Positions 3,267-29,306 of a DNA stretch of 42,237 nt are shown here, piece by piece (the stretch's first letter is position 1; every line of letters begins with the position of its first letter). The stretch lies in assembly GCA_023248395.1 (NCBI GenBank), contig JAHFEQ010000005.1:1-42237 (forward strand), given 5' to 3'. A program made the position numbers and the translations under genes. The notes below the pieces were generated by a model. That model ran no database searches. It saw only the letters and a list, made by a program, of their open reading frames with translations, and was not told the origin of the DNA. The stretch is from Nitrospirota bacterium. GTDB lineage: Bacteria; Nitrospirota; 9FT-COMBO-42-15; HDB-SIOI813.

Positions 3267-5723
3267 ATGATGCAAAAACTGTTTCACAGATTAAAAAGCG
3301 AGATTATGTTGCTCGATGGTTCTCTGGGTGCCATGCTGCAGTCGAGAGGACTTCCTTCTGGGTATGCCCCCGACTTGTGGAATTTAGAAAGGCCTGAAAT
3401 CATCGTAGAAGTGCATAGAGAATATGTTAATGCGGGTAGCAATATTATTCTGGCAAATACATTCGGATCTACTCGCCTTCGCCTGGCAGAGTATGGTGTT
3501 GAAGGGAGATTAAAAGAGATTAATCAGGAAGCGGTTAAAATAGCCCGTAAGGCTGCTGGAGACAAAGTATTTGTAGCCGGTGATGTTGGCCCATGTGGGG
3601 CAACAATCTTCCCGATCGGTGAGCTATCCTTTGAGGATGCTGTAGACATATTCTCTCAGCAGACAGAAGTATTAGTAAACTCGGGATGTGATTTGATTGT
3701 CATTGAGACGATGTTTGATCTGATTGAGATACGGGCTGCCATCATTGCTGTAAGAAGGGTTTCCAAGAGTATCCCCATTGCTGCACTGATGACATTTACA
3801 CAAGATGGTTTAACAGATACAGGGACTGATCCTGAAACAGCGGCAGTGGTATTAGAGGGATTAGGAGTTGATATCATTGGCGTCAATTGTTCTACTGGAC
3901 CTGCAGAGATGGTTGGAGTTCTGAAAAAGATGGTATTAGCAACGGATGCCTATATCTGTGCAGAACCGAATGCAGGGCTCCCACAAAATATAGGAGGCCG
4001 GACTGTATTCCCTATGTCTGCTGAAGAAATGACTTCCTATGCTGAACAGTTTATAGATGTCGGCGTAAATATATTAGGAGGTTGTTGTGGTACTACCCCT
4101 GAGTATATTCGATTGTTAGCACAAAAGATAAAAGGGAGAAAGCCGGCTCTAAGAAAAGGCTTGGGAGGGCTCAAAATAGCAAGCAGGTCGAAGACTGTCT
4201 ATGTGGGAAGTGGCTTTCCATTTCTTAAGATAGGAGAGAAGATTAATCCTACTGGACGGAAGGCATTAGCTGAGGCCATAAGAGAAGGGCGTATGGATAT
4301 GGTTATAACGGAGGCCAGAGGACAATATGAAGCAGGGGCGATGTCGCTTGATGTGAATGTCGGTGTTCCTATGACGGATGAACCAAGGAGTATGGGACGT
4401 GCAATAGAGTCTATTCAGACGGTTGTGGATATCCCTCTTGTCATAGATAGCTCTGTTATAGAGGCGATCGAAGGGGGGCTTAAGGTGTATGCCGGCAAGG
4501 CTCTTGTAAATAGCGTTAATGCAGAACCTGAACGCATGGAAAAACTATTTCCGATCATAAAAAAATATGGCGCTGCCGTAATAGCCCTTCTTGCCGGACA
4601 TGAAATTCCAGAAACGGCTACTGAGCGATTGAAGAAAGCAGAAAATATTCTTCAACAAGCCCTGTCCTATGGGATAAGAAGAGAGGATATCCTGTTTGAC
4701 TGTTTAGCCCTTACCGTATCAGTAGCCCAGGAGGCCTCGACCCAGACCCTTGAAACTATTCGGCTGATAAAGCAGGAACTTGGTTGTCCTTCAATACTGG
4801 GTGTAAGTAATGTTTCTTTTGGTCTTCCGAATAGGAAGACCATTCATAACACATTTTTAGGGATGGCAATAGGATATGGGTTGGATGCGGCCATTGTTAA
4901 TCCCTATGATCTGGATTTGCATCAGGTGGTATCTGCTGCAAGCCTGTTTGCAGGCAGAGATATTGGTTGTCGAAAATATATAGCCCTTCAAGAGACTTTC
5001 AAAGTAGGTGAGAAGAGAGAAGAGAATAAAGAAGGGGGGGTGACCAAGAAAGAGGTGAGCACAGGGGATAAGATATTTAATGCTGTAGTTGAAGGTGACA
5101 GAGATGGAATAGTGGCCTATGTTAAAAAGGGGCTTGAGGAAGGTATCGATCCGGGAGAGATCTTCCTTGATATTATGACTCCAGCTATAAGGCGTTTGGG
5201 TAATTTATTTGCTGAAAGAAAGAAGTTTATTCCGCATTTAGTGGCTTCTGCAGAGTCCATGAAGCGGGGAGTGGATGTGTTGATTCCTTTTCTGGAAAAA
5301 AAGGGGGTTATAGAGAAGAAGGGTACTATTATCATGGCTACGGTGAAAGGCGACATCCATGACCTTGGTAAGAATATATGCTGCATGATGTTGAGGAACT
5401 TTGGATTTGAGGTTGTAGATCTCGGGAAAAACGTACCTTATGAGGAGATATTAAATGCTGCAGAGAAATATCATGCTCATATTATAGGACTTTCAGCGCT
5501 CATGACCACAACAATGCTGCAGATGAAGACTGTCAGAGATGCTGTACATGAACGAGGACTTCCATATAAAATTATGATAGGGGGGGCAGTAACCACACAG
5601 AGATTTGCGGATGAAATTGGGGTGGACGGATATGCTAAAGATGTTGGCGAAGTGCCCTACGTTGCAGAGAGGTTGATACAAAGACATCCTTCTGTCCGGG
5701 CCAAATGTTCGCTTGACGGGTAG
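3267..5723 (+). CDS. metH: Cobalamin-dependent methionine synthase core (lacks reactivation domain)
   Basis: An 818-aa enzyme that transfers the methyl group from methyl-tetrahydrofolate via cobalamin to homocysteine. Domains in order are: homocysteine methyltransferase barrel (about 1-290) with zinc cysteines in GVNCSTG (near 208) and GGCCGTT (Cys273, Cys274); pterin-binding barrel (about 320-575); a Lys/Glu-rich linker; helical cap; and the B12-binding Rossmann domain. The cobalt-ligand motif DIHDLG is at 696-701 (His698), with GLSALMTT and GGAVTT downstream. Full MetH is about 1,200 aa. The C-terminal AdoMet domain is absent here and encoded by the gene at 2514. The ribosome binding site GGAGAGAGG precedes two tandem ATGs (3267 and 3270), either of which could be used. 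Confidence 0.95.
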   Translation: MMQKLFHRLKSEIMLLDGSLGAMLQSRGLPSGYAPDLWNLERPEIIVEVHREYVNAGSNIILANTFGSTRLRLAEYGVEGRLKEINQEAVKIARKAAGDKVFVAGDVGPCGATIFPIGELSFEDAVDIFSQQTEVLVNSGCDLIVIETMFDLIEIRAAIIAVRRVSKSIPIAALMTFTQDGLTDTGTDPETAAVVLEGLGVDIIGVNCSTGPAEMVGVLKKMVLATDAYICAEPNAGLPQNIGGRTVFPMSAEEMTSYAEQFIDVGVNILGGCCGTTPEYIRLLAQKIKGRKPALRKGLGGLKIASRSKTVYVGSGFPFLKIGEKINPTGRKALAEAIREGRMDMVITEARGQYEAGAMSLDVNVGVPMTDEPRSMGRAIESIQTVVDIPLVIDSSVIEAIEGGLKVYAGKALVNSVNAEPERMEKLFPIIKKYGAAVIALLAGHEIPETATERLKKAENILQQALSYGIRREDILFDCLALTVSVAQEASTQTLETIRLIKQELGCPSILGVSNVSFGLPNRKTIHNTFLGMAIGYGLDAAIVNPYDLDLHQVVSAASLFAGRDIGCRKYIALQETFKVGEKREENKEGGVTKKEVSTGDKIFNAVVEGDRDGIVAYVKKGLEEGIDPGEIFLDIMTPAIRRLGNLFAERKKFIPHLVASAESMKRGVDVLIPFLEKKGVIEKKGTIIMATVKGDIHDLGKNICCMMLRNFGFEVVDLGKNVPYEEILNAAEKYHAHIIGLSALMTTTMLQMKTVRDAVHERGLPYKIMIGGAVTTQRFADEIGVDGYAKDVGEVPYVAERLIQRHPSVRAKCSLDG

Positions 5724-5791
5724 GTTACCTGCATGCTATATTCCATGCATAATAGAAAGTATTTTTACTTATACTTAACTTATAGCAGTAA

Positions 5792-6364
5792 ATGAAATTA
5801 ACCTTCAACAGTACAGTCTCTTTGGCAATATTTACTATTGTTTTAAGTGTAGTCCTAAGTGTTGGCTTTTTTCTCCAGCATACTTTGGCTGAGAATAAAA
5901 GTTATGATTTAAACTTAGGAGTACAGGAATATTCCGGCCCCGCTGAGGCGATAGATTTTACACTAAAGGATATAGATAACAAGAAGGTTACTTTAAAAAA
6001 CTACAGGGGCAAGATAGTCATGCTTAATTTCTGGGCTACCTGGTGTACACCTTGCCGTATAGAAATGCCATCCATGGAGAAATTACATCGACAATTCAAG
6101 GATAGGGGACTTGTTGTTTTAGCGGTGGCCTCTGGTGAAAATGCAGAAAGTGTAAGTACATTTGTTAAAGAGCATAAAATAACATTTTCTGCTCTTTTGG
6201 ATTCTGATCAGGAGGTAACAGACGATTATAAAGTCTGGGCTCTCCCTACCACGTATTTTATCAACGCTGAAGGTAAGATAATAGGGAAGGTTAATGGGAG
6301 CAGAGACTGGAGTGCAAAAGAGGCAACTCAGTATATTTCATCCATTTTCCAGGCATCTCTGTAA
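5792..6364 (+). CDS. TlpA/ResA-family membrane-anchored thioredoxin
   Basis: A 190-aa thiol-disulfide oxidoreductase with an N-terminal anchor or signal segment (residues about 8-30) and a TlpA-type thioredoxin fold. The active site FWATWCTPC has Cys85 and Cys88, and the cis-proline loop LPTTYF follows. It probably acts on the periplasmic side, reducing apocytochrome c or other cysteines. It resembles the ResA at 26428 but lies far from that operon and beside a Met-rich Spy-like protein, so it may serve a different client or metal stress. The start is an ATG with only a weak upstream ribosome binding site. Confidence 0.9.
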   Translation: MKLTFNSTVSLAIFTIVLSVVLSVGFFLQHTLAENKSYDLNLGVQEYSGPAEAIDFTLKDIDNKKVTLKNYRGKIVMLNFWATWCTPCRIEMPSMEKLHRQFKDRGLVVLAVASGENAESVSTFVKEHKITFSALLDSDQEVTDDYKVWALPTTYFINAEGKIIGKVNGSRDWSAKEATQYISSIFQASL

Positions 6365-7060: not shown

Positions 7061-8737
7061 ATGCCATTTTACCATTTCAGGCAGACATATAGAGACTTAC
7101 AACGTGTTCGCCAAATCTTAAATACCCTCATAAAATATGGCTTTGGCTATGTGGTAGAGAGATTAGACCTGCAGGGATATATCCCTTTAGGTAAAAGACT
7201 ATTTAGAATTTCCAAAAGAGAGTCAGTTCCTAAGAATGCTGCTGAACAGTTCAAGCTTGTTCTTGAAGAGCTTGGTCCTACGTTTATAAAATTTGGACAG
7301 ATATTAAGTCTGCGGCGGGATATCTTATCTGAAGATTTCATCAAAGAATTAGAAAAACTGCAGGACGATGTCCCACCCTTTCCTGCAGAGCACTCCTTAC
7401 AAGAAATTTTATCGCAACTTGGAAAACCAATAGAGAAACTTTTTGCATCCTTTGATAAGAAACCCCTTGCTGCCGCATCTATTGGGCAGGTCCATAAGGC
7501 AAAATTATTCGATGGGAGAGATGTAGTAGTTAAAATACAAAGACCTGGGATTCGGGAGACTGTAGAGACAGACCTCAATATTCTAATGAATCTGGCAAGG
7601 CTGTTAGAGAAATATATGCCAGAGGCTAGACTATACGATCCTATTGGCATGGTAGAGGAATTTGCGAAATCTATACGCAGAGAATTAGACTTTAGGATTG
7701 AAGGTAGGAGTGCAGACAGGTTCAGGGAGATATTTAAGGGATCCAAGACCGTATACGTCCCGGAAGTTATATGGGAACTTAGTGGAATGCGTGTCATTAC
7801 GATCGAGTATGCCGTGGGGAAGAAGGTTACGGAGGTAGGCGGAGATATTCAATATCGGCACAATTTAGCAAAAAATTTTAATGAATCTTATTTAATTCAA
7901 ATATTTGAATATGGTTTTTTTCATGCGGATCCCCATCCAGGCAATATTTTTATTCTTGATGACGGGCGTATCTGTTTTCATGATTTTGGCATCATGGGGT
8001 ACCTCGATGATGAGATGGCAGATAATTTATCTGGCCTGTTTCTGGCCTTTATGGATAAGGATATTGGAAGGATGATGGATGTATATCTTGCGATAGGTAT
8101 ACTCACTGGTGATGTTAATACGAAGGCTCTTAAAAGAGACATTAGGGATTTTTTGGAGAGATATTACGGAATTCCTTTGAAGGAATTCTCTTTCGCTGAG
8201 TTTACGGAAGGTCTTATATCTATAGGGAGACGTTATCAGATAAAGGCCCCTACAGAATTACTCATGTTTGGCAAGACCTTTATGACGGTTGAGTCTATAG
8301 TAAGGATCCTGGACCCTGAGTTTAATCTTGTGGAGAATATCAGGCCATATACCCAGGTCTTGTTAAGGAAGAAGCTCTTTGACCCATCCAGAATTTACAG
8401 GGACTTAATGAAAATCGGTATGGAAATAAGCAGCATTCTTCGAACACTTCCTCATGACCTTCATAATATCGTGCGGCATCTTAAAGAAGGCCGTATAGAG
8501 ATAGATGTTAAGCATGATAAACTTGAAGATTTAGAGCGGCATATAGATAAGGCCAGCAACAGATTATCCTTTAGCCTCGTCATTGCTGCAATTATAGTAG
8601 GTTCTTCTATTATCATGCAGACTCAGATCAGCCCGCTTATGTTAGGGTTTCCTATAATAGGTGTTATTGGCTATCTTGTAGCCGGTTTCTTAGGGCTATG
8701 GCTTGTATGGGCTATACTTAGATCAGGCAGACTGTGA
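7061..8737 (+). CDS. AarF/UbiB-family atypical kinase
   Basis: A 558-aa member of the ABC1/UbiB family. Visible motifs are KFGQ at 77-80, the A-rich loop AAASIGQ at 137-143 that replaces the kinase P-loop, a likely Lys158, HADPHPGN at 288-295 and the metal-binding DFG at 308-310. Two transmembrane helices end the protein (about 500-555). UbiB proteins support quinone biosynthesis or lipid-soluble precursor handling through ATPase activity. In a probable menaquinone organism the exact role is unclear. The start ATG has an AAAAGGA site. The gene converges on purC; a short GGCA/TGCC hairpin lies between the two stops. Confidence 0.93.
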   Translation: MPFYHFRQTYRDLQRVRQILNTLIKYGFGYVVERLDLQGYIPLGKRLFRISKRESVPKNAAEQFKLVLEELGPTFIKFGQILSLRRDILSEDFIKELEKLQDDVPPFPAEHSLQEILSQLGKPIEKLFASFDKKPLAAASIGQVHKAKLFDGRDVVVKIQRPGIRETVETDLNILMNLARLLEKYMPEARLYDPIGMVEEFAKSIRRELDFRIEGRSADRFREIFKGSKTVYVPEVIWELSGMRVITIEYAVGKKVTEVGGDIQYRHNLAKNFNESYLIQIFEYGFFHADPHPGNIFILDDGRICFHDFGIMGYLDDEMADNLSGLFLAFMDKDIGRMMDVYLAIGILTGDVNTKALKRDIRDFLERYYGIPLKEFSFAEFTEGLISIGRRYQIKAPTELLMFGKTFMTVESIVRILDPEFNLVENIRPYTQVLLRKKLFDPSRIYRDLMKIGMEISSILRTLPHDLHNIVRHLKEGRIEIDVKHDKLEDLERHIDKASNRLSFSLVIAAIIVGSSIIMQTQISPLMLGFPIIGVIGYLVAGFLGLWLVWAILRSGRL

Positions 8738-8761
8738 GTTGGCACTGAAAAATGCCCATCT

Positions 8762-9658
8762 CTATTGTATCAATATATCCATGATCTCCTGGTAGCGTGT
8801 GGCTGCCTTTCTGACAATCTCATCAGGAAGTACCGGTCCGGGCGGGCGCTGATTCCACTTGAGGGTCAGCAGGTAGTCTCTAATAATCTGTTTATCATAG
8901 CTATCCTGACTCTTCCCAGGTTGATAAGTCTTTACAGACCAGAAACGGGAAGAGTCAGGGGTAAGAATTTCGTCTAGTAATATAAGCTGGTCATCAAGCA
9001 GACCAAACTCAAACTTTGTATCCGCAATAATAACTCCTTTCTTTTCGGCTATGGCCTGCGCCTTTTTATATACCTGGATGCTGACGTCTCTTAATCGAAT
9101 TGCTAATTCATTCCCCACTATTTTTTTTGCTTCGTCAAAGGTTATATTAATATCATGACCCTCTTTGGCCTTGGTACTTGGAGTAAATAGGGGTTCAGGA
9201 AGTTTTGCAGACTCAAGAAGGTTATCAGGCAGTTTTATCCCGCATACTGCCCCATTCTTTTTATATTCCTTCCAGCCAGAGCCGGAGATGTATCCCCTTA
9301 CAATGCATTCCACAGGGAGTGGTTTCGCCTTTTTTACAAGCATACTACGGTCTCTGAGTGTCTCTTTTACAGGCTGGCATACAGCAGGAAAGTCTTCTAC
9401 GTCTATGCTTATGAGATGGTTGGGTATTATCCCTTCCATTTCTTTGAACCAGTAGGCGGATATTTGAGTCAATATCCGCCCCTTTCCTGGTATGCCATTT
9501 GGGAGTACGACATCAAACGCAGAAACACGGTCTGTTGCAACGAGTAGCAGATGTTTATCGAGGTCAAAGATGTCCCGGACTTTACCGCTTCTAAGGACCT
9601 TGATGCCAGGGATTTCCACTTTTAAAACTGTCTTCTCTATGACAAGCCTCAGTATCAA
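8762..9658 (-). CDS. purC: Phosphoribosylaminoimidazole-succinocarboxamide (SAICAR) synthase
   Basis: A 298-aa enzyme of purine synthesis that ligates aspartate to CAIR using ATP. Recognisable motifs are SGKVRDIFDL near the N-terminus, the long-form family signature LPVECIVRGYISGSGWKEY in the middle, and GHDINITFDEA. The long form of about 300 aa is normal for this subfamily. The start is uncertain: the open frame begins with TTG at 9658 inside a C/G-rich palindromic repeat that supplies a GGGGGG ribosome-binding-like stretch. Homology should begin around EKTVLKVEIPG, where no ATG or GTG is available. It lies immediately downstream of sat on the same strand but is functionally unrelated. Confidence 0.94.
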   Translation of the reverse strand: MILRLVIEKTVLKVEIPGIKVLRSGKVRDIFDLDKHLLLVATDRVSAFDVVLPNGIPGKGRILTQISAYWFKEMEGIIPNHLISIDVEDFPAVCQPVKETLRDRSMLVKKAKPLPVECIVRGYISGSGWKEYKKNGAVCGIKLPDNLLESAKLPEPLFTPSTKAKEGHDINITFDEAKKIVGNELAIRLRDVSIQVYKKAQAIAEKKGVIIADTKFEFGLLDDQLILLDEILTPDSSRFWSVKTYQPGKSQDSYDKQIIRDYLLTLKWNQRPPGPVLPDEIVRKAATRYQEIMDILIQ

Positions 9659-9697
9659 ATCCCCCCTGACCTCCCTTTTCTAAAGGGGGGAAGGGGC
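9657..9697. repeat. C/G-rich palindromic intergenic repeat
   Basis: CCCCCC...CTCCC is followed by TTTTCTAAA and then GGGGGG..GGGG, forming a hairpin between sat and purC. The form (C-runs, short A/T loop, G-runs) resembles dispersed repeats common in several environmental phyla. It overlaps the first codon of purC. Confidence 0.6.
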
Positions 9698-9715
9698 GAT
9701 GACAAGTACAATCAA

Positions 9716-10879
9716 CTATTCCTTATTCACTGACATGGCCTCTATCAGTATCTTTGCCACCTCTGGACGTGAGAATTCAGGCGGAGGGGTAACACCATTT
9801 TTCAGCATCTCACGGACCTTTGTCCCTGAAAGGGTCACATGCTCACTTGAGTCATGGGGGCAGGTTTTGTATGATGCCATACTTGTGCAACGTTTGCAAT
9901 AGAAGGTGTGGTCAAAAAACATGGGGGTTATCCCAAGCTCTCCATCTTCGAACTCATCAAAGATATAGTGGGCGTCAAAAGTCCCATAATAGTTTCCTAC
10001 GCCGGCATGGTCTCTTCCCACGATAAAATGGGTACAACCATAGTTTTTCCTGCAAATTGCGTGGAAGATAGCCTCTCTTGGTCCTGCATATCTCATAGCG
10101 GCCGGAAAGACGGCCAGGAAAGTACGATCTTTTGGATAGTAGTTTTCAAACAGGGCCTCATAGCAACGCATTCTGATTTCAGCCGAAATATCATCACCCT
10201 TTGTAGCACCCACTAAAGGATGTACAAGGAGACCATCCACAATCTCAAGCGCAGATTTCTGTATATACTCATGGGCACGGTGAATCGGATTCCTTGTTTG
10301 AAATCCTACAACACGCTTCCACCCCTTTTCCTGGAAGATCTTCCTTGTATCAGCCGGGTCAAGACGATACTGAATAAAGTCTTTATGTCTTGGTCTGTGG
10401 AAGAGGCTTATCTTCCCACCGATAAGGATAGGCCCAGAGTCATAGAGTTGTTTTACTCCGGGATGTTCCGGGCTGTCAGTTTTATATACCTCTATTGCCT
10501 CCTTTTCCTTATCATGTGAGTAAATATCTTCTATTAACATCACGGCGAGAGAATTCCCTTCCCCGTCAACTAAGGCTACCTCTTCTTTCATAGATAGGTC
10601 GTTAGCCGTCTCCTCTTTTACAGAAAGGGTGATCGGGATAGACCATGGAAGACCGTTGGCCAGACGCATGGTGTCCACAACAGTATTATAATCATCCCGG
10701 CCCATGAATCCTTCCAATGGACTCATAGCGCCTGTGGCTATCATCTCGAGGTCTGAGATTTCCCTCTTATTTAATTGAAGCTTTTTTAATTCCTTTGCCT
10801 TTAACTCTGATAGTTCACGGTCTTTACCCCGCAGTATCCGGTTGATCAATTTGCCGCCATGTGGTATGGAATGTAGCAT
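9716..10879 (-). CDS. sat: ATP sulfurylase (sulfate adenylyltransferase, Sat type)
   Basis: A 387-aa homo-oligomeric Sat that interconverts sulfate plus ATP with APS plus PPi. The HxGH-type motif is [11 protein letters not shown] (Gln194, His200, His203), and the second nucleotide motif is GRDHAGVG (288-295). Cys328, Cys331, Cys340 and His342 match the zinc site of bacterial and archaeal dissimilatory Sat. There is no APS kinase domain. The ATG has a strong ribosome binding site (AAAAAGGAGGAT). It is the last gene of the Rrf2-aprA-aprB-reductase-sat run, 32 bp after the reductase. The preceding gap contains AATCATATAAAAA, shared with the leaders of aprB and of the gene at 34139. Confidence 0.96.
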
Positions 10880-10911
10880 CTAGGGTATCCTCCTTTTTAT
10901 ATGATTACATA

Positions 10912-13281
10912 TTATGCCTTTTCTATAACAATCCTGTAATGCTTATCTTCTACCTTCTCTTCCTCGAGTATCTTATGCCCTTCATTAAGGACACTCCGCG
11001 GGACGTTCTGGTAAGGTTCTCCATCATCAACGATAATTTGCAGTATCTGACCTGCATCCATCTCCTCTAATTTCAACTTTGTCTTTACAAAGTTATAGGG
11101 GCATGCCACGCCCTTTAAGTCTAAGTAGGCATCTATCTTTTTCTCCATGGGTCTTTCTACCTCCTCTTTTGATTCCTTCTCTTCTCTTTTCCTGAATTTA
11201 AAGTCTTTATCAAGCTGATTATAAGCCTCCTGAGATTCTCTTGCCAGAATCTCAGCGAGTATTATTCTCTCTTTAACTTTATCTTTTGATGCTGGCTTGC
11301 CATACTCAGTAAATAATGGTTCAACCCTCCCTGACACAATACACTTATCTATGATCTTATCCTGAAACTCCCGTATAAGTTCACGCTCCACCTCGGTGTC
11401 TATCCCAAAGGGGACCAGCATGCCTTTAGAGACAGATATTATTGCCCGCTCAACCCGCTTGAGCGATTCTTCGGTCTGACCGGCTTCAAAGAGCATGGCA
11501 GCCTCGGATACCTCACGGCTGCCAGTAAGGAGGCAGTCTTCAATTAAATCGACCACTCCGCCTGCACACTCCCCGGCCCCAAGTTTTACAACAAAATCTG
11601 TCTTAGAACCCCAATCATAATAGCTTTCAGAAGATTCTGTAAATGATGGAATGGTGGTATGTTTCTCCAAAAGCCCCTGGACATAATCTAATCCCACTCT
11701 TTCAATATACTGATAGAACAGCTCCCCCGGCAGTTGTTCCTGTTGATAGAGAGAGACAAGTTCTGATATGGCACCTGGTATATTCCTGGCCGGAAGCTTT
11801 ATATTTGAATCTCCAATGACGGCACGGCCTTTTCCAATGCCACCCCTGAGATGCAGTTGATAGTGCGGGACAAGCCGTCCTTCTATCTTCTTTGCCACAC
11901 CATGAAAACCAATATCAGCTATGTGATGGTGACCGCAGGAATTAGGGCATCCACTTACTTTTATCTTAACATTTTCAACCTCAGCATCCTCTCTTGTGCT
12001 AAGTTCTTTACCAATGGCAAATGCTAACTGTCTCGATGATGTTAGTCCCAGATTACAGGTCTCCGCACCAGGGCAGCTCTGAATATCAATCATCTTTCCG
12101 GCGCCAGCCAGGGCCATTTCCCCCTCTTTTAATGCCTTATACAGGTCGTGGATGTCTTTGTCCCGCACCCATCGCATAATAAAGTTTTGCTGTTGTGTTA
12201 CTGTGATGCTGCTATTCGCATATTTGGCTGTAATACCCGCCAGCCTCCTGATCTGATCTGTAGTAATATCTCCCATCACCAGACGGACACTCACTGCGTT
12301 ATATCCATCCTGTTTTTGTTTAAGGACATTTGTACGATGCCATCTGTTAAAATATGGATCGCCAGAACCACTTGACTCTGTTTGGTCAGATGCTATATTG
12401 CAGCCTTGTGGAGCTGTATCGCCTGTTGGTAGGGTAAGAGACCATGTTCTTGAGGTCTTAAGGATGTTAAATTCCTTCATAATTCTTTTCTTAAGTTCCT
12501 CAAAACCAATTTTTTCCAGCAAAAATTTCATCCTGGCCCTGCTCCTGTTTTTTCGCTCCCCAAATTGATCAAAGACTCTTAAAATAGCCTCAGATAGTGG
12601 TATAAGATCTTCTTGTGGTACGAACTCATACAGTAACTGCGCTATCCTAGGATGAGGTCCGAGGCCGCCTGCAACATAGACCCTAAAGCCAAGTTTCTCA
12701 GTTCCATTACCCCCCCCTTTTACGGCTATAGCGCCTATATCATTAATGGGTGCCATCGCACAGTCTTGAGAACATCCAGAGAAGGCTATTTTGAATTTCC
12801 GTGGAAGGCTCTGACACACTGGATTTCTCAAAAAATATGAGGTTGTAAGTTTTGCATAAGGGGACACATCGAATGCTTCATCAGGGCAAATACCTGCTAA
12901 ATAGCATCCTGTAACATTTCTGACAGTATTACCGCATGACTCTCTTGTTGTGAGTCCGACCTCTGCAAGGAGCCGCATAACAGTTGGTACATTTTCTAAC
13001 TTAACCCAGTGAAACTGTATATCTTGTCTGGAAGAGGTGTGGGCTATGCCAGTTGAGTATTTATCGCCGATATCTGCTAACCTTCTAAGATGTTCAGGGT
13101 TCAGTGTACCCTGCGGTATCTTGACCCGCACCATGAAATCTTCTTTCTGGCGCTGGCCGTAGATACCCTGTTGCAGCCTAAACCTTTTGAACTTATCCTC
13201 AGGGATTTCACCCTGTTGCAGCCGACCTATTTCTTTCTCAAAGGCCGCAATCTCTTCAAGTACAGAGGGGGGTATATTCAT
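10912..13281 (-). CDS. Siroheme sulfite/nitrite reductase with C-terminal helical region and TusA domain
   Basis: A 789-aa protein. Residues 1 to about 540 form a ferredoxin-type sulfite/nitrite reductase with two ferredoxin-like/haemoprotein halves. The second half has the complete siroheme-[4Fe-4S] site: Cys403 and Cys409 in SCPGAETC, Cys445 and Cys449 in SGCPNSC. The first half also retains cysteines (116, 126, 170, 174). Residues about 570-690 are helical, with a LFEAGQTEESLKRVERAI segment reminiscent of HEPN-like tails on some sulfite reductases. After a charged linker, about 714-789 is a TusA/SirA domain with the persulfide motif GVACPYN (Cys727). It presumably reduces sulfite to sulfide and may load sulfur onto its own TusA domain. 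ATG with AGGAG 10 nt upstream. The substrate (sulfite or nitrite) is not settled by sequence; the aprAB/sat context favours sulfite. Confidence 0.9.
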   Translation of the reverse strand: MNIPPSVLEEIAAFEKEIGRLQQGEIPEDKFKRFRLQQGIYGQRQKEDFMVRVKIPQGTLNPEHLRRLADIGDKYSTGIAHTSSRQDIQFHWVKLENVPTVMRLLAEVGLTTRESCGNTVRNVTGCYLAGICPDEAFDVSPYAKLTTSYFLRNPVCQSLPRKFKIAFSGCSQDCAMAPINDIGAIAVKGGGNGTEKLGFRVYVAGGLGPHPRIAQLLYEFVPQEDLIPLSEAILRVFDQFGERKNRSRARMKFLLEKIGFEELKKRIMKEFNILKTSRTWSLTLPTGDTAPQGCNIASDQTESSGSGDPYFNRWHRTNVLKQKQDGYNAVSVRLVMGDITTDQIRRLAGITAKYANSSITVTQQQNFIMRWVRDKDIHDLYKALKEGEMALAGAGKMIDIQSCPGAETCNLGLTSSRQLAFAIGKELSTREDAEVENVKIKVSGCPNSCGHHHIADIGFHGVAKKIEGRLVPHYQLHLRGGIGKGRAVIGDSNIKLPARNIPGAISELVSLYQQEQLPGELFYQYIERVGLDYVQGLLEKHTTIPSFTESSESYYDWGSKTDFVVKLGAGECAGGVVDLIEDCLLTGSREVSEAAMLFEAGQTEESLKRVERAIISVSKGMLVPFGIDTEVERELIREFQDKIIDKCIVSGRVEPLFTEYGKPASKDKVKERIILAEILARESQEAYNQLDKDFKFRKREEKESKEEVERPMEKKIDAYLDLKGVACPYNFVKTKLKLEEMDAGQILQIIVDDGEPYQNVPRSVLNEGHKILEEEKVEDKHYRIVIEKA

Positions 13282-13307
13282 AATGATTACTCCTGACTAA
13301 TTTATTT

Positions 13308-13691
13308 TTAGATAGAAAAGTCTACTGCTGCCACGCCTTCTATCTTTTCATCAAGCTCTACCGGAAGCACCTTTGTCCGTATAGTAAAATTGTCTATAGC
13401 GCCCTCGGTATCGATAAGCTCCCATGTTATAAAATCCCTTGTGTCGTGTATATGAGGAAGCAATCTTGCAGTATGAAATCCCAGTTGATAGGAGAGCCTG
13501 AATTCTATAGCCTCCTGCGGGCATACTTTTACACAGGGTAGACAATCCCAGCATTCTGCCGGATCTCTCATAAGGATCTTTCCCGTTTTTGGGTCTTTCA
13601 TTAGAAGGTCCCCCGGGCACATTCTCACGCACGGTGGGTTATGTGATCCATGACATGTATTGCATTTGTCTGCATGTACAACTACTGGCAT
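13308..13691 (-). CDS. aprB: Adenylylsulfate reductase beta subunit
   Basis: The iron-sulfur subunit that passes electrons to the flavin of AprA for APS reduction to sulfite and AMP (or the reverse). Two [4Fe-4S] motifs are visible: KCNTCHGSHNPPCVRMCP and CWDCLPCVKVCP. The Trp between clusters (CW) matches the conserved AprB tryptophan. The start is set at the ATG at 13691, which follows GGGAGGA; an upstream in-frame ATG at 13733 lies in the leader hairpin and is unlikely. At 127 aa the protein is shorter than typical AprB (about 145-165). The C-terminal tail that embraces AprA looks divergent. It lies between aprA and the reductase. Confidence 0.93.
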   Translation of the reverse strand: MPVVVHADKCNTCHGSHNPPCVRMCPGDLLMKDPKTGKILMRDPAECWDCLPCVKVCPQEAIEFRLSYQLGFHTARLLPHIHDTRDFITWELIDTEGAIDNFTIRTKVLPVELDEKIEGVAAVDFSI

Positions 13692-13714
13692 CTTTCTTCC
13701 TCCCTTTTTTATAT

Positions 13715-13740
13715 GATTCCAGAGATTAATCACTGGAATC
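13715..13740 (-). promoter_or_regulatory. Leader hairpin between aprA and aprB
   Basis: GATTCCAG and CTGGAATC form a perfect 8-bp stem with a 10-nt loop, ending about 23 nt before the aprB start and followed by ATATAAAAAAGGGAGG. The same stem and surroundings recur at 34066-34113 before another gene. It may set aprA/aprB stoichiometry, protect or cleave mRNA, or simply be a repeat; the sequence alone does not say which. Confidence 0.6.
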
Positions 13741-13769
13741 TTTTTTTACATCTCTATAATCAATCTTTA

Positions 13770-15488
13770 TTACCTTGGTTTATACCTGTCCCCAGGGACT
13801 ATCTGTTCATAAGGCCTTGTGAATACCTCAATATTTCCTGTGACAACATCCCTTCTTGAGTTTACAAATTTGAGCCACTGCTCGTCATCTCTCTCAGTAT
13901 AGTCTGTCCGGGTACAATATCCAGGCCATCTGGTTTCCTTTCGATACAACATGTGTTCCACAAGGGTCTGGGCAACATAGACCCTGTCTATTACCTCATG
14001 CGCCTTCATAAGTTCATGAAGCTCTTCTGCTATAAGGTGTTTAAATTGGTCTGGCAGTGTAGAGAGGCGTCTTTTAGCTACATGGAGTCTCTCCTCGCTG
14101 ACTTCATAAAAGGTTGCCGCTCCCCCTGCATATTCCTCCATGATCTTCTGGAGTCTGACCTCCATGTCGTAAGGCCTTATTCCATCCTTTTTGTTAGTAA
14201 AGCTAAGAAGTGGAGCAAAGACCCGATTCTGTTCCTCCTCGATAATATCTGCTGGTATTTCCATGAATTCATTCTTCTGGGCATACTCCCCAGCATTCAT
14301 TGCGGCGATGACCCCCTCTGCCCAGCAGCCACTTACAAACTTGTATGGCGCACCACCCGATACGTCGCCCGCTGCATATAGACCATCGAGGGTTGTCTTA
14401 CGGTTGACATCGATCCAATAACCAGACTGGGTGTGTCCCCCTACTATGTAAGGTTCGGTAGTCTGGACTTCAACAGGTTCTTTTGAGGGGTCTATTTCAT
14501 TCGCTGCCCAGTAGAGAACCATGGAAGGATACATGTCAAGGAATGCCGACTTAAGATCTCTTGCCTGTTGAGATGTTATATGACGCGTATCTAAATAGAC
14601 AGGACCGCGTCCCTCTTTTATCTCCTGGATTGGCCCATGTGACCGGTATGGGGTAGGGGCACCGTCTCCCCCGATATGGGCGTATTTCGTCGCCATAAAC
14701 TTCTCTCCCTTTGAATTGATTTGAGGGGCTCCCACACCAAGGGCTATAGTCCCCGTTGGGGCTATTGTATCTTTGACACGCAGACCGATATAGCGCATCT
14801 CAAAACTCGTCATCTCAGCACCGGCCCTTATGCCCATGGCAAATCCTGCGCCTGTGTTATAGGGGCAATACCATGTCTTATGTTGTGCATCGTGAGCATT
14901 GTTTGGTTTATAAATCCCGGCAGCACCGCCCGTTGCGATAATGGTTGCCTTTGCCTTCACTATAAATAGGTTTCCATTCCTTATGCTGACACCAACGGCA
15001 CCTCCGACTTTGCCATCTACGACTAAATAATTGGTAGCCACAACCCAATTTAAAACCTTTGTCCCGGCATTCTTTGCAGCCTTTGCAATAATAGGTTTTA
15101 AAGACTCACCATTGATCTTAATATTCCATCTGCCTCGCGGTATGTAGTTTCCTTTTTCATCACACAGAATAGGGAGGCCCCATTTCTCTACCTTCTTCAC
15201 GCAATACTCGAACAGCTTTGACATACTCAATACGAGATCTTCCCTGATTAAACCACAGGAATCAAATCTGACGTACTTTACAAAGCTCTCAGGGGTCTCT
15301 CCAGGGTTCAGATAGGCATTTATCGCATTCATGCCCCCTGCGAGACAGCCACTCCTGTCAATGTGTGCCTTTTCCATGATAGTGACGCTGAGATTTGGAA
15401 ATCGTTCCCTTACCTCAACTGCAGCTAAACACCCTGCTGTTCCACCTCCTATAATAAGAATGTCTGTCTCAATAATATTCTGCTCCAT
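13770..15488 (-). CDS. aprA: Adenylylsulfate reductase alpha subunit
   Basis: A 572-aa FAD protein of the fumarate-reductase/succinate-dehydrogenase flavoprotein fold that reduces APS to sulfite plus AMP. It has the N-terminal dinucleotide site DILIIGGGTAGCLAA. AprA-like segments follow: NTGAGFAMGIRAGAEMTSFE, GPVYLDTRH, GGHTQSGYWID (a catalytic-region His) and RPYDMEVRLQ in the C-terminal helical domain. Dissimilatory AprA is usually about 610-660 aa, so this is a compact version. The ATG has AAGGAGGGG upstream. It lies 40 bp downstream of the Rrf2 gene and 78 bp upstream of aprB. No qmoABC or aprM is present in the window, so its electron donor is unknown. Confidence 0.94.
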   Translation of the reverse strand: MEQNIIETDILIIGGGTAGCLAAVEVRERFPNLSVTIMEKAHIDRSGCLAGGMNAINAYLNPGETPESFVKYVRFDSCGLIREDLVLSMSKLFEYCVKKVEKWGLPILCDEKGNYIPRGRWNIKINGESLKPIIAKAAKNAGTKVLNWVVATNYLVVDGKVGGAVGVSIRNGNLFIVKAKATIIATGGAAGIYKPNNAHDAQHKTWYCPYNTGAGFAMGIRAGAEMTSFEMRYIGLRVKDTIAPTGTIALGVGAPQINSKGEKFMATKYAHIGGDGAPTPYRSHGPIQEIKEGRGPVYLDTRHITSQQARDLKSAFLDMYPSMVLYWAANEIDPSKEPVEVQTTEPYIVGGHTQSGYWIDVNRKTTLDGLYAAGDVSGGAPYKFVSGCWAEGVIAAMNAGEYAQKNEFMEIPADIIEEEQNRVFAPLLSFTNKKDGIRPYDMEVRLQKIMEEYAGGAATFYEVSEERLHVAKRRLSTLPDQFKHLIAEELHELMKAHEVIDRVYVAQTLVEHMLYRKETRWPGYCTRTDYTERDDEQWLKFVNSRRDVVTGNIEVFTRPYEQIVPGDRYKPR

Positions 15489-15528
15489 AGATATGACCCC
15501 TCCTTGATTTTAATAAACCAGTTTATAT

Positions 15529-15972
15529 TTATATATGATACATTACTGTTTTTTCTTGTTCTCTCTTTTTCTTGTACATATCTTCTATACTTACTTTACT
15601 TAACGCACCTGTAATAGCCCTACGAACATCCTCCCATACTTCCTTAACAACGCATCCATTTATCTGAGGGCACTTGTGCTCAAATGCACCATTAGTGCAG
15701 TCCATCGGGGTTATAGGCCCTTCAATTGCCTCAACTATTTGAGCCACACTAATTGTCCTGGGGTCTCTTGACAATACATAGCCACCTTGTGCTCCACGGA
15801 TGCTTTCTACAAGGCCGGCCTTTTTCAGGGATGCCATGACTTGCTCTAAGAATCTCATCGGAATGGCCTGTCGTCCGGCAATCGCCCTTACATGGACGGG
15901 GCCTTTATCGGCATTAAGGGCCATATCTAAGACTGCTGTGATTGCATAGTCACTTTTAACTGAAAACCGCAT
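15529..15972 (-). CDS. Rrf2-family transcriptional regulator
   Basis: A 147-aa winged-helix regulator with the Rrf2 N-terminus (MRFSVKSDYAITAVLDMA), the recognition region LEQVMASLKKAGLVESIRGA and GGY. The three cluster cysteines sit in CTNGAFEHKCPQINGC, with the C-x8-C-x5-C spacing of IscR/CysR-type [2Fe-2S] or sulfur-responsive members. The start is put at ATG 15972 because TAGGA lies 8 nt upstream; a TTG at 15978 is in frame. It is the first gene of the aprA-aprB-reductase-sat run, and its own promoter carries a palindrome. It therefore probably autoregulates and controls sulfate reduction in response to cysteine, sulfide or Fe-S status (inference). Confidence 0.92.
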   Translation of the reverse strand: MRFSVKSDYAITAVLDMALNADKGPVHVRAIAGRQAIPMRFLEQVMASLKKAGLVESIRGAQGGYVLSRDPRTISVAQIVEAIEGPITPMDCTNGAFEHKCPQINGCVVKEVWEDVRRAITGALSKVSIEDMYKKKREQEKTVMYHI

Positions 15973-15987
15973 TTTCAATATCCTACT

Positions 15988-16001
15988 ATTCCGATAGGAA
16001 T
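15988..16001 (-). promoter_or_regulatory. Candidate Rrf2 operator at the start site
   Basis: ATTCCTATCGGAAT (minus strand) is an inverted repeat ATTCC-N4-GGAAT placed at about +1 to +14 of the predicted start of the sulfur operon. The overlapping string TATCGGAATAGTA recurs as TATCCGAATAGTA at 16051-16063 on the other strand. A repressor bound here would block initiation. Assignment to the neighbouring Rrf2 protein is inference. Confidence 0.55.
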
Positions 16002-16008
16002 TATGAAA

Positions 16009-16036
16009 ATTATACCAATTATTTTTCCCCTGTCAA
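16009..16036 (-). promoter_or_regulatory. Sigma70-type promoter of the Rrf2-apr-sat operon
   Basis: On the minus strand TTGACA (16031-16036) and TATAAT (16009-16014) are separated by 16 bp, so both hexamers are consensus. They drive the Rrf2 gene and presumably the genes behind it. Confidence 0.75.
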
Positions 16037-25685: not shown

Positions 25686-26426
25686 CTACAGTTCTATGCT
25701 CCAACCTATGCCATGCTGCTGAAACCATGCTGTGAGGAGGGTGAAAGAGTTGGTAAATATCATCACCCCGATGATGATAAGGAAGGAGCCACTGGTGATG
25801 GTGATCCACCTCATATACTTTGTAATAACCTTAAAGGTGGATATGAATGAATTAATGGCGAGGGAGGAGATAAAGAGGGGGAGACCGAGTCCAAGCGAAT
25901 ATACAGCCAGAAGTCCCATCCCCTTAGCCACGGACCCTGTCGTACTGGCATAGAGGAGTATTGAACCTAATATCGGTCCCACGCATGGCGTCCATCCGGC
26001 GGCAAATGCCATCCCGACGACAAAAGACCCGAAATAACCCGCAGGCTTATGTTCTATATGTATTTTCTTCTCCGAAGTTAAAAAGTCAAGTTTAAGTACC
26101 CCCATGATATAAAGACCAAACAGGACGATCAGGACTCCTCCCACCTTTTGGACAATATCCTGGTAGGTCAATAAGATCTTTCCTATGTAAGTTGCTGACC
26201 CGCCGAAGAGGACAAAGACGGTTGTAAATCCGGCAATAAAGGTGAGCGAATTGGTGATCGTGATGAACCGGACCCTCGCCCGGTCTTTGCTTGAGGTAAT
26301 ATCCTCGAAGGTCAGCCCCGTGATATAGGTCACAAACGAGGGAACTAGCGGGAGCACACAGGGTGAGACAAAGGATAGAAGTCCGGCAGAAAAGGCTACA
26401 AATACAGAAAGGTGACCCGCTTCCAT
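25686..26426 (-). CDS. ccdA: CcdA-type thiol-disulfide transmembrane electron carrier
   Basis: A 246-aa membrane protein with about six helices that moves reducing equivalents from cytoplasmic thioredoxin to periplasmic ResA. The two redox cysteines are Cys23 (SFVSPCVLPLVP) and Cys148 (AAGWTPCVGP), each in the conserved proline-flanked context. The length is typical of CcdA (short DsbD core). The ATG has AAAGGAGG and follows the resA stop by a single base. It works with the adjacent ResA, CcsA and ResB in system II cytochrome c maturation. Confidence 0.96.
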   Translation of the reverse strand: MEAGHLSVFVAFSAGLLSFVSPCVLPLVPSFVTYITGLTFEDITSSKDRARVRFITITNSLTFIAGFTTVFVLFGGSATYIGKILLTYQDIVQKVGGVLIVLFGLYIMGVLKLDFLTSEKKIHIEHKPAGYFGSFVVGMAFAAGWTPCVGPILGSILLYASTTGSVAKGMGLLAVYSLGLGLPLFISSLAINSFISTFKVITKYMRWITITSGSFLIIIGVMIFTNSFTLLTAWFQQHGIGWSIEL

Positions 26427-26427
26427 C

Positions 26428-27027
26428 CTAACCTCCTTTTGTTTCAGTCTCCGGTTTGATATTAAGCAGCTTAAAAATAGTCTGAACTGCTGCTATGGTT
26501 TCCCAATTTCTCGGTCCGATCACTTTCTCAGCGAGCTTTCCTTCCTGATCGATGATATAAGTCTCCGGAACGCCTGTCAGCTTATACTTACCATCCGTCT
26601 TACCCCAGGGGTCGAGAAGGATCGGAAACTTAAGACCCAGGCTGGAAACAAAAGGGCCTATCTCCTTTTGGGTGGTCACCCTGTCCATGCTTATAGCCAG
26701 CATTTCAAAGGGTACGTTCTTTTCTTTTAGATAGGTATAAAGGATCTGCATAGAGGGCATCTCATCTTTACAGCTCTTGCACCATGTGGCCCAGAAGTTT
26801 ATAAACACCACCTTGCCTTTCAGGGAAGAGAGGATATACTCCTTACCATTCATATCCTTGAGTGTAAAGTCAGGGACGTATGCGCCTGCGACTACCGGTT
26901 CATATTTGCTGCTCTTCATCCATACCATCCCAATGATTCCTGCCAGGATGACGACAGCAATAATAAGGGCACTGAATTTGCCGCTGCTCTTGGCCCTTTT
27001 CTCTTCGTCTATAACAAACTCAGCCAC
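26428..27027 (-). CDS. resA: ResA-type membrane-anchored thioredoxin
   Basis: A 199-aa protein with one N-terminal membrane anchor (about 18-38) and a TlpA/ResA thioredoxin domain with FWATWCKSC (Cys83, Cys86). It reduces the CXXCH cysteines of apocytochrome c before haem attachment. It starts with GTG at 27027, preceded by a G-rich stretch. The genes behind and in front are CcdA (its electron source) and CcsA/ResB (the haem ligation complex), so its role is better supported than that of the paralogue at 5792. Confidence 0.95.
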   Translation of the reverse strand: MAEFVIDEEKRAKSSGKFSALIIAVVILAGIIGMVWMKSSKYEPVVAGAYVPDFTLKDMNGKEYILSSLKGKVVFINFWATWCKSCKDEMPSMQILYTYLKEKNVPFEMLAISMDRVTTQKEIGPFVSSLGLKFPILLDPWGKTDGKYKLTGVPETYIIDQEGKLAEKVIGPRNWETIAAVQTIFKLLNIKPETETKGG

Positions 27028-27044
27028 CTCAAGACCTCATCCTG

Positions 27045-27878
27045 TTACGCATAGGCATGCAGTCCCGGGAGTACAAAGCTTACCCCCCAGTAGAGGAATA
27101 CAACTGCAATAAATCCAATGATAGAAAAATAGGCGGTCTTTCTGCCCCGCCATCCACGTACAAGCCTTCCATGGAAGTAGCCTGCATAGATAAACCATAC
27201 AATCAGTGACCATGTCTCCTTCGGATCCCAGCTCCAGTATCCTCCCCAGGCATAGTTGGCCCATATGGCACCGAGTATGATACCGAGGGTTACAAATGGA
27301 AATCCTATGGCAATAAACTTATAATTCAGGTCGTCAAGAAGTTCTGAGCTGGGAAACCTGTCAAAAAAAGAAGGTTTACCTCTCTGCTCTGAACGTTCTT
27401 TGAGTAGATACATGATGCCGATACCGAAGGCTATTGCAAAACCTGCATAGCCGACAAATGTTGTGATGACATGGAGGATTAGCCAGTTACTCTGTAAGGC
27501 CGGTATCAGTGGCTCTATAGCCTGATATCGGTATGGTAACATGGCTGCCGCTCCAATTGCAAGGAATGCGAGAGTGACAATAACAGCCCCCACAATCCTC
27601 AACCTGCTGGAATACTTCAGTTCTATGGCGATATAACCCATAATCACTAACCAGGAGAGGAGAACCATTGTCTCGTATAGATTTGCATAGGGGGCCCTTC
27701 CTGTTTCTATGGTTCTGACAACAAGTGCCGCTGTATTAACCAGCCAGCCCAGAACTGTCAGTGCAAATGCTAAATGACCTATCCAGTCTTTCTTCAGTGC
27801 CATGTAAACGATATAACAGCAGGATGCTATCAGGTAGACCCATAATAGGATATCAGAGAGAAAAAAAGAGTTGAACAT
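27045..27878 (-). CDS. ccsA: Cytochrome c haem-lyase subunit CcsA/ResC
   Basis: A 277-aa membrane protein of about eight helices. The WWD-type haem-handling motif WGGYWSWDPKE (211-221) is intact, and conserved flanking histidines are visible at about 136 (LILHVIT) and 236 (YFHGRL). With ResB it exports haem and attaches it to apocytochrome c. The ATG has AGGAGG. It lies 18 bp downstream of resB and 17 bp upstream of resA. Confidence 0.96.
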   Translation of the reverse strand: MFNSFFLSDILLWVYLIASCCYIVYMALKKDWIGHLAFALTVLGWLVNTAALVVRTIETGRAPYANLYETMVLLSWLVIMGYIAIELKYSSRLRIVGAVIVTLAFLAIGAAAMLPYRYQAIEPLIPALQSNWLILHVITTFVGYAGFAIAFGIGIMYLLKERSEQRGKPSFFDRFPSSELLDDLNYKFIAIGFPFVTLGIILGAIWANYAWGGYWSWDPKETWSLIVWFIYAGYFHGRLVRGWRGRKTAYFSIIGFIAVVFLYWGVSFVLPGLHAYA

Positions 27879-27896
27879 AAGTTGTTTCCTCCTGTC

Positions 27897-29306
27897 TTAA
27901 AAAGACTCTACGATACTCTTAAGTTCTTTTTCAAAGCCATAAGAGTCTTTATTCGTAAGGCCACCAAGATATATTAATGCACTCTTTTCAGAGGGTTCGA
28001 TCTTAATCCACAGCCTCCGGTGAAATATGAAAAAGGATATAAAAAGTCCCGCCATCAGTAGTCCGCTTCCGATCCAGACCAGATTAACTCCAGGGTCCTT
28101 TGCCATCTGAAGACCTGAGTATTGGGGAGATCTGTAATCGGCTAAGATAAAATCAAATTTTGATTTCTCTATAGGGAACATGTTGTGCAATTTTGGATCA
28201 TAGAATAGCCATGGTGTCGCTATGAGGTTTCCGTCCTCCACAATTTCAAGTTGAACCGCTGGATTCTCATGTTCAGGTGACTTAGCATATACCTGTTTTC
28301 TCTGGGCGTCATAGGCGAAGTGGGATACAAAATTGGTAACGTTCAACCGCAAGCCAGTTCCCTTTATCTCCTTCTCCTTCCTGAAGTCAAGGGCTTCTTC
28401 AACTACTATTTTCCCGCTCTTTTTATCTATGATACGGATAAGCGCCTTATCAACCCTGTCCCATGCCAGTCCATAGCTGCTTTGGTAAAACCAGAAGCCT
28501 TTATATTGCAGGGGATCATTGACCTGGATGGTCTTCGTCATCATCTTCTTACCATGATCTACTACAGATAACTTGCTAAAATAATCTTTTATACTGCCGT
28601 TCTCATTATAGTCTATCCAGAATTTATCCAGAGACACATAGAAGTCTCCCTGAGGGACATAGAGAGGTTGACCTTCATAGACAGGGTAGAAGCTCCTGAA
28701 CCCAATCGCACTACTGACCACAGTCCCCGTAAGGATGATAAATATACTGATATGCGTTATTGTAGAGCCCAGTCTCCCTATTCTTCCTTTAGCGGCAAAG
28801 ATTGAGATGTCTTCAGCACTATTTTCTGGGGGGTTATTTTCTACCCAGAGCTTATATTTGTGCCCCTTTAATAGAGATGCAATCTTATGTTTAGCCTCTT
28901 CAGCATTGCCCTGAAATTTGATTATGGTACAGTTTTTGAGATTCTGGACAAGGTTATGCGTAAAATCACAGTCGACTACATAATAGGCCCTCCATATAGA
29001 GGGCAGCCTCTTTGAGAGACAGACTGCGAGGTTTGTGGCCAGAAGGGCCAGTAAGAGGGTAAACCACCAGCTATGATATAGATTGGTAAGGTTGAAGAGA
29101 TTGATCCAGTAGTACCACTTCTCCCCATACCGTTCTATATATTCCTGCGGGTCAAGCCCCTGTTCTATTACGGTTCCCAGGATGGAGCCGGTTGCCAAAA
29201 GGAAGAAGACTACGACTGCTAACTTGACCGAACTGAAGAAGTCATAGACTTTTAAATAGACCCCCCTCTGCCTGGATCCTACTTCTGTCTGTGCTGCTGT
29301 CTCCAC
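27897..29306 (-). CDS. resB: Cytochrome c maturation protein ResB
   Basis: A 469-aa membrane protein with three N-terminal helices (about 25-45, 75-95, 185-205), a large periplasmic domain (about 210-390) and a final helix (about 400-425). ResB features include FSSVKLAVVVFFLLATGSIL and the FWFYQSSYG region. It partners CcsA in system II haem ligation. It starts with GTG at 29306 with only a weak ribosome binding site. It is the first gene of the 11-kb minus-strand run, and a promoter lies 60-90 bp upstream. Confidence 0.95.
   Translation of the reverse strand: METAAQTEVGSRQRGVYLKVYDFFSSVKLAVVVFFLLATGSILGTVIEQGLDPQEYIERYGEKWYYWINLFNLTNLYHSWWFTLLLALLATNLAVCLSKRLPSIWRAYYVVDCDFTHNLVQNLKNCTIIKFQGNAEEAKHKIASLLKGHKYKLWVENNPPENSAEDISIFAAKGRIGRLGSTITHISIFIILTGTVVSSAIGFRSFYPVYEGQPLYVPQGDFYVSLDKFWIDYNENGSIKDYFSKLSVVDHGKKMMTKTIQVNDPLQYKGFWFYQSSYGLAWDRVDKALIRIIDKKSGKIVVEEALDFRKEKEIKGTGLRLNVTNFVSHFAYDAQRKQVYAKSPEHENPAVQLEIVEDGNLIATPWLFYDPKLHNMFPIEKSKFDFILADYRSPQYSGLQMAKDPGVNLVWIGSGLLMAGLFISFFIFHRRLWIKIEPSEKSALIYLGGLTNKDSYGFEKELKSIVESF

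Follow-up and report, generated by a model that had tools for sequence, protein, structure and literature searches.

The window analysed here, a 42,237-nucleotide (nt) contig of a Nitrospirota draft genome (JAHFEQ010000005.1, assembly GCA_023248395.1), carries a five-gene operon, Rrf2-aprA-aprB-sir/tusA-sat, which very probably encodes a complete pathway of assimilatory sulfate reduction with AprAB serving as the adenosine 5'-phosphosulfate (APS) reductase in place of CysH. The case is read from sequence: the genes, their order and conservation, the clade and pocket residues of AprA, the operator, and the absence of DsrAB, QmoC and CysH. No other argument for assimilation is as strong as the apparent in-place exchange of AprAB and Sat for the CysH and CysDN of related operons. 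A preliminary description had proposed such a sulfate-to-sulfide route with AprAB replacing CysH, and the proposal gained support from the missing dsrAB, qmoC and cysH genes, from the position of AprA outside the sulfate reducers and from a Nitrospira-like operon that has CysH and CysDN. The genome is a 2.01-Mb draft of 119 contigs, 95% complete and <1% contaminated, and the window is the entire contig C97. Its family, HDB-SIOI813 (class 9FT-COMBO-42-15), includes the metagenome-assembled genome (MAG) nzgw273 from groundwater and has shown little evidence of sulfur oxidation (PMC11033732).

The five genes named in the preliminary description were confirmed as a co-directional series on the minus strand (9716-15972), separated by intergenic gaps of ~26 to 78 nt. 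The features of the operon are as follows.

16009-16036, minus strand: sigma-70-type promoter, near consensus and read directly (TTGACA at 16036-16031, 16-nt spacer, TATAAT at 16014-16009).
15981-15999, minus strand: TCCTATCGGAATAGTAGGA, a putative operator for Rrf2, located after the -10 box and before the start codon.
15529-15972, minus strand: transcription regulator of the Rrf2 family, IscR/CymR-like, whose gene opens the operon (ATG at 15972; Pfam Rrf2, 140 bits).
13770-15488, minus strand: AprA, short APS reductase alpha subunit binding flavin adenine dinucleotide (FAD), 572 amino acids (aa) (NF005331, PDB matches and tree).
13308-13691, minus strand: AprB, beta subunit with two [4Fe-4S] clusters (eight cysteines), 127 aa (matches 3gyx_B, 1jnr_B and 8a8o_C).
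10912-13281, minus strand: ferredoxin-type siroheme sulfite reductase (Sir) with a C-terminal TusA domain, 789 aa (Pfam NIR_SIR, NIR_SIR_ferr and TusA).
9716-10879, minus strand: Sat, an ATP sulfurylase of the homo-oligomeric type, whose gene ends the pathway set (NF003166, 586 bits, and TIGR00339, 464 bits, both above cut-off).
8762-9658, minus strand: PurC, a conserved downstream neighbor outside the pathway, found after Sat in six relatives.

With Sat, AprAB and Sir in one operon, every step from sulfate to sulfide is encoded together. In the pathway that we propose, Sat would produce APS, and the short cytoplasmic AprAB would convert APS to sulfite and AMP by means of FAD and two [4Fe-4S] clusters, taking the role of CysH and running in the reductive direction. 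The single-chain siroheme enzyme would then reduce sulfite to sulfide or to bound sulfane sulfur, the fused TusA domain may accept reduced sulfur on its conserved Cys727, and the sulfur would pass on to cysteine synthase, for which the genome holds two genes (TIGR01136 matches above cut-off). A low-potential ferredoxin is the likely default electron donor to both reductases. Rrf2 would bind the operator that closely follows the promoter of its own gene and would switch the whole operon according to sulfur or iron-sulfur (Fe-S) status.

The Rrf2-aprA-aprB-sir-sat order recurs, mostly with purC next, in seven further genomes of the same GTDB family (f1), in which AprA is 87 to 93% and Sir 70 to 82% identical to the window proteins; a chance arrangement is thereby excluded. 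Further afield, an orthologue of the Sir/TusA protein (~45% identity) occurs in Nitrospira-like families, in operons with the order Rrf2-sir/tusA-cysH-trpD2-cysD-cysN (L044, L046 and L053). These operons share with the window orthologous Rrf2 and sir/tusA genes and the position of the operator, but they have CysH and CysDN where the window has AprAB and Sat. Family f24 has the order aprA-aprB-sir-trpD2-sat. In families f29 and f31, Sat is followed by an Mrp gene, which in Nitrospira comes after CysN. Since the Nitrospira-like, f24 and Mrp arrangements all surround a common core, AprAB appears to stand in the place of CysH and Sat in that of CysDN. We also observed that a gene of the phosphoribosyltransferase family, TrpD2-like, lies within the sulfate assimilation operon of several families (L093, 12820-13827; L095; L189; and the Nitrospira-like loci).

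The regulatory region is conserved along with the genes. The Rrf2 protein scores above the cut-off of TIGR00738 and below those of the equivalog models for IscR and CymR. Members of the Rrf2 family, these two among them, sense Fe-S or cysteine status. The TTGACA/TATA-like pair precedes Rrf2 in relatives too, and the 19-mer is identical (0 mismatches) in six genomes of the family, representing five genera. A 15-nt core of the operator lies upstream of Rrf2 with 0 to 4 mismatches, compared with an average of ~6 in shuffles, in families f28, f31, f25, f18 and f9 (the last of these Nitrospira-like) and in one of the two f2 genomes. In f29 and the other f2 genome (L096, L098 and L101), 5 to 6 mismatches are no better than shuffles, and we make no claim there. 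Because the core is conserved upstream of Rrf2 in both operon types, AprAB-type and CysH-type operons appear to share one regulator-operator pair. Allowing up to 3 mismatches, the putative operator is present in a single copy per genome, the exception being one 3-mismatch match in G003. We therefore rejected a wider Rrf2 regulon, at the level of this motif and not a looser one, and the regulator looks local in action.

AprA belongs to a clade separate from the dissimilatory enzymes. It matches NCBIfam NF005331 (adenylyl-sulfate reductase subunit alpha) with 777 bits (cut-off, 557), whereas its score of 474 against the dissimilatory model TIGR02061 is under the cut-off of 642. The preliminary description had noted that AprA and AprB are unusually short, and this was borne out, as dissimilatory Nitrospirota have subunits of ~630 to 665 and 140 to 147 aa. 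It had also left the placement of AprA to phylogeny; in a maximum-likelihood tree, 42 rows of the short clade were split from 14 dissimilatory rows with branch support of 100/100, which places the protein outside the sulfate-reducer group. The short side of that branch also holds MtPAPSR, the reductase of Methanothermococcus thermolithotrophicus that uses 3'-phosphoadenosine 5'-phosphosulfate (PAPS), and an Hdr-linked type. The motif Arg120-Trp121-Asn122, which corresponds to positions 143 to 145 of Archaeoglobus fulgidus AprA, is present as Arg-Trp-Asn in 34 clade sequences found by protein similarity; a further 33 such sequences carry no weight for the Trp and Asn, since the scan pattern that retrieved them demanded those two residues. 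Dissimilatory AprA has x-Trp-Gln at 143 to 145, with Gln145 in 16 of 16; GRWNIKI[NH]GES is diagnostic of the clade, as opposed to the dissimilatory G-x-WQIMI[NH]GES.

The Hdr-linked type forms a third kind of AprAB-like protein (L107 to L111, L148 and L149), with an AprA of ~585 to 610 aa, Arg-Phe-Asp at the motif and 47 to 51% identity to the window AprA. In the contexts read (L107 to L111), it is followed by HdrA-like/FlpD and HdrC-/HdrB-like genes, usually near complex I genes. Four genomes (G227, G335, G297 and G391) have both this type and a dissimilatory AprA, and a different substrate seems likely for it. The idea that short and long AprA occur together in sulfate reducers was dropped, as the second copy proved to be the Hdr-linked, Arg-Phe-Asp type.

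Genome-wide absences were assessed with protein-family searches. The siroheme-reductase model PF01077 matched only two proteins, the operon Sir and one on contig C75 that resembles NirB, so DsrAB is absent from the genome. The best QmoC match (NF038018) was 21.5 bits, far under the cut-off of 300; none of the seven family genomes searched had a match above it, and the same model gave 413 bits in the dissimilatory relative G012. The sole match to PF01507 (PAPS_reduct) was a CysD, so CysH is missing as well. The operon has no membrane-protein gene; AprM was not searched for genome-wide. DsrAB and QmoC, whose absence from the window had been noted earlier, thus proved absent from the genome, as did CysH, but a CysD with a CysN stub is present. 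These results bear on the possibility that the operon serves to respire sulfate, the siroheme enzyme acting as the terminal reductase. It does hold a complete sulfate-to-sulfide enzyme set, as such a role would need, but the lack of DsrAB and QmoC, the single reductase of ferredoxin type and the orthologous Nitrospira-like operon with CysH make that role extremely improbable. Moreover, Nitrospira are aerobic nitrite or ammonia oxidizers.

A second alternative is a dissimilatory or detoxifying role in which AprAB and Sat run in reverse, oxidizing sulfite to sulfate and making ATP while electrons pass to an unspecified acceptor. AprAB and Sat are reversible in sulfur oxidizers, a TauE/SafE-type exporter gene lies between Rrf2 and AprA in "Candidatus Manganitrophus," and the aprAB and sat genes of another family in the same Nitrospirota class have been interpreted in this way (PMC11033732). 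However, QmoC is missing, and so are the AprB residues proposed for Qmo docking, Lys14 and Asp/Glu17 (PMC2211403). Falling below the TIGR02060 cut-off, AprB retains the eight cysteines and the Cys13-Cys21 loop but has a short C-terminal tail and, at positions 14 and 17, His14 and His17. The corresponding loop reads CK..[DE] in each of the 14 AprB proteins examined from dissimilatory Nitrospirota. In addition, AprAB would have to compete for sulfite with the reductase encoded in its own operon, the operon is under a single Rrf2 operator, and Nitrospira relatives have CysH and CysDN at the same place. Leptospirillum-like relatives with AprAB and Sat have neither an APS kinase nor a strong CysH or CysD match and hence would be left with no other known route of sulfate reduction. 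We consider reverse operation distinctly unlikely, and neither respiration nor reverse sulfite oxidation was accepted as the main role, given that the genome has neither DsrAB nor QmoC and that AprB lacks the residues proposed to dock Qmo. The canonical dissimilatory Sat-AprAB-QmoABC system, including that of Thermodesulfovibrio-type Nitrospirota, catalyzes the same two reactions with the same cofactors; the window system differs from it in its separate AprA clade, in Asn in place of Gln145, in the AprB loop and tail, and in having no QmoC or Dsr.

Several observations weigh against assimilatory APS reduction by AprAB. In a draft of this completeness, absences are not absolute. The CysD gene and the start of CysN (~44 codons) border one end of contig C104, which is 4.9 kb long (L035, 1-982); the remainder of CysN was not found in the window genome, both genes are absent from the near-complete (98 to 100%) relatives G002, G005 and G006, and the pair may be contamination of the draft or strain-specific. 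A divergent APS-kinase-like gene lies on contig C84 (L121, 7265-7792) between genes for S-adenosylmethionine (SAM) synthetase and a phosphotransferase-like protein. Proteins of this kind occur in other Nitrospirota also, and the gene was rejected as a pathway member on its neighbors, which G003 shares. For sulfate uptake, the only family searched, the permease SulP, is represented by a fragment in the window genome and by full-length genes in G002 and G006. Finally, by sequence the PDB entry nearest to AprA is 8a8o, which is MtPAPSR (E = 1.3e-192), followed by 1jnr, and the AprA pocket has Asn145 rather than the dissimilatory-invariant Gln, with Arg at position 143, so a PAPS-tolerant pocket is possible.

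Since the nearest characterized enzyme uses PAPS and not APS, the substrate has to be argued separately. MtPAPSR, with Lys-Arg-Ser at the motif, prefers PAPS, and Gln145 has been proposed to clash with the 3'-phosphate (PMC10322725). An enzyme like it in the window would reduce PAPS supplied by a kinase encoded elsewhere, with a phosphatase clearing the 3'-phosphoadenosine 5'-phosphate (PAP) formed, and the operon would still be assimilatory. This variant is consistent with the fold as well as the sequence, as an AlphaFold model of AprA (predicted local distance difference test score, 79) also had 8a8o as its best match, ahead of 1jnr and 2fja; with Arg120 and the shorter Asn122, the pocket could have space for a 3'-phosphate; and 10 of the 18 genomes examined have APS-kinase-like genes. 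In the other eight, all with the same AprA motif and including G026 (a single contig, 99% complete) and G182, no APS kinase is detectable, and PAPS is therefore very unlikely to be the substrate there. No APS kinase gene was found near aprA in 68 contig stretches covering up to 8 kb. In relatives, the true APS kinases whose contexts were read lie in polysaccharide-type clusters, one of them beside a CysQ-like phosphatase, and the kinase-like gene of the window genome is the divergent kind adjoining SAM synthetase. The clade also agrees with APS reductases at Trp144, Leu278, Phe448 and Ser450 (A. fulgidus numbering), positions at which MtPAPSR differs. Overall, the pocket reads as in between the APS and PAPS types; APS is favored because 8 of 18 genomes have no APS kinase and because the clade retains most of the APS-pocket residues lost in MtPAPSR, and we regard the PAPS variant as unlikely. 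The two systems have in common an AprAB fold used for assimilation, short subunits, the lack of CysH and many clade-specific residues. The methanogen relies on PAPS, an APS kinase and a PAP phosphatase, a Lys120-Arg121-Ser122 pocket and the F420-dependent Fsr, whereas the window has Arg120-Trp121-Asn122, no kinase in the operon, a ferredoxin-type sulfite reductase fused to TusA, and Rrf2 control.

In the Sir protein, the siroheme reductase occupies residues 1 to ~560, a helical linker ~575 to 690 and the TusA domain ~717 to 789. The siroheme part folds like Mycobacterium tuberculosis NirA (1zj8, the best fold match), a ferredoxin-type sulfite reductase, and like plant nitrite and sulfite reductases; NirA has no fused TusA domain. 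The cluster cysteines (Cys403, Cys409, Cys445 and Cys449) are invariant in 16 orthologues, as is Lys164 of the K162-x-K164 motif, at the site of Asn226 in nitrite reductase. Nitrite reduction was rejected on this lysine. The TusA domain matches Escherichia coli TusA (3lvj; template modeling score, 0.87 on the target), with Cys727-Pro728 invariant and a CPxN motif in place of CPxP. Assimilatory sulfite reductases have been found to release zero-valent sulfur (PMC13188885), and if Sir does so, we infer that a tethered TusA would have an obvious task. Sulfur trafficking, which the preliminary description also mentioned, may conceivably be an additional role of the fused domain. The fusion is not indispensable, since in one locus (L043 of G001, 7855-9991) Sir ends before the TusA domain and Sat begins immediately after.

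The 68 stretches mentioned above came from scanning 84,980 species genomes for the motif; 4 of them have no AprA match and are due to chance. Most are from Nitrospirota (Leptospirillum, Manganitrophus and Troglogloeales), and the others are from Bacillota (Halanaerobiales and Clostridia), Euryarchaeota, Schekmanbacteria, Desantisbacteria, Planctomycetota and Actinomycetota. Gene neighbors in these other phyla seem to point the same way, toward sulfur assimilation. In a clostridial MAG (L208), an NMT1/SsuA-like binding protein and ABC-transporter-like genes adjoin aprAB-sat; in an actinobacterial MAG (L175), aprA is preceded by a TusA-like stretch and by genes for a pyridoxal phosphate enzyme, a ThiS-like carrier and a sulfite reductase; and in two archaeal loci (L156 and L162), aprAB-sat is accompanied by genes for a small sulfite reductase and for a subunit resembling one of F420 dehydrogenase. 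Separately, the aprA of "Candidatus Manganitrophus" sp. GAC4 (L165; CP114561.1, listed as complete; 4556-6267) is broken by a frame change, reflecting a pseudogene or a sequencing error.

Elsewhere in the window, translations alone indicate an apparent cytochrome c maturation set on the minus strand (25686-29306), with CcdA-like, ResA-like thioredoxin and ResB-/ResC-like genes; another ResA-like gene occupies 5792-6364.

The idea of an assimilatory AprAB is already known, as is a PAPS-using relative (PMC10322725): assimilation was proposed for Dsr-less organisms such as Ferroglobus placidus, which likewise have AprAB and Sat outside a Dsr pathway, with the original function of AprAB and Sat, assimilation or respiration, left unclear (PMC10504309). 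There assimilation is a proposal only, whereas in the window it is backed by the operon exchange and the conserved operator. In the open literature searched, we found no earlier description of the APS-type clade and its motif, the Rrf2 operon with one conserved operator, the fused Sir-TusA protein or the exchange with CysH and CysDN. A bolder scenario, which we hold to be rather doubtful, is that the Arg-Trp-Asn clade is an old assimilatory APS reductase of Nitrospirota, Bacillota, archaea and other phyla whose ancestor also gave rise to dissimilatory AprAB and the PAPS variant, and that TusA in the window operon takes sulfane sulfur directly from the siroheme enzyme, bypassing free sulfide.

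AprA and AprAB serve as metagenome markers for sulfate respiration or sulfur oxidation. The present findings suggest that AprAB, when its partner genes are missing, is unreliable as an indicator of sulfate respiration and that the assimilatory-looking clade may be recognized by the AprA motif and the AprB loop in groundwater Nitrospirota and in Leptospirillum-like and Manganitrophus-like genomes. They also bear on the question of whether AprAB and Sat arose first for assimilation or for respiration (PMC10504309), and these operons would provide a natural experiment on how AprAB and CysH, which are unrelated enzymes, interchange under one regulator.

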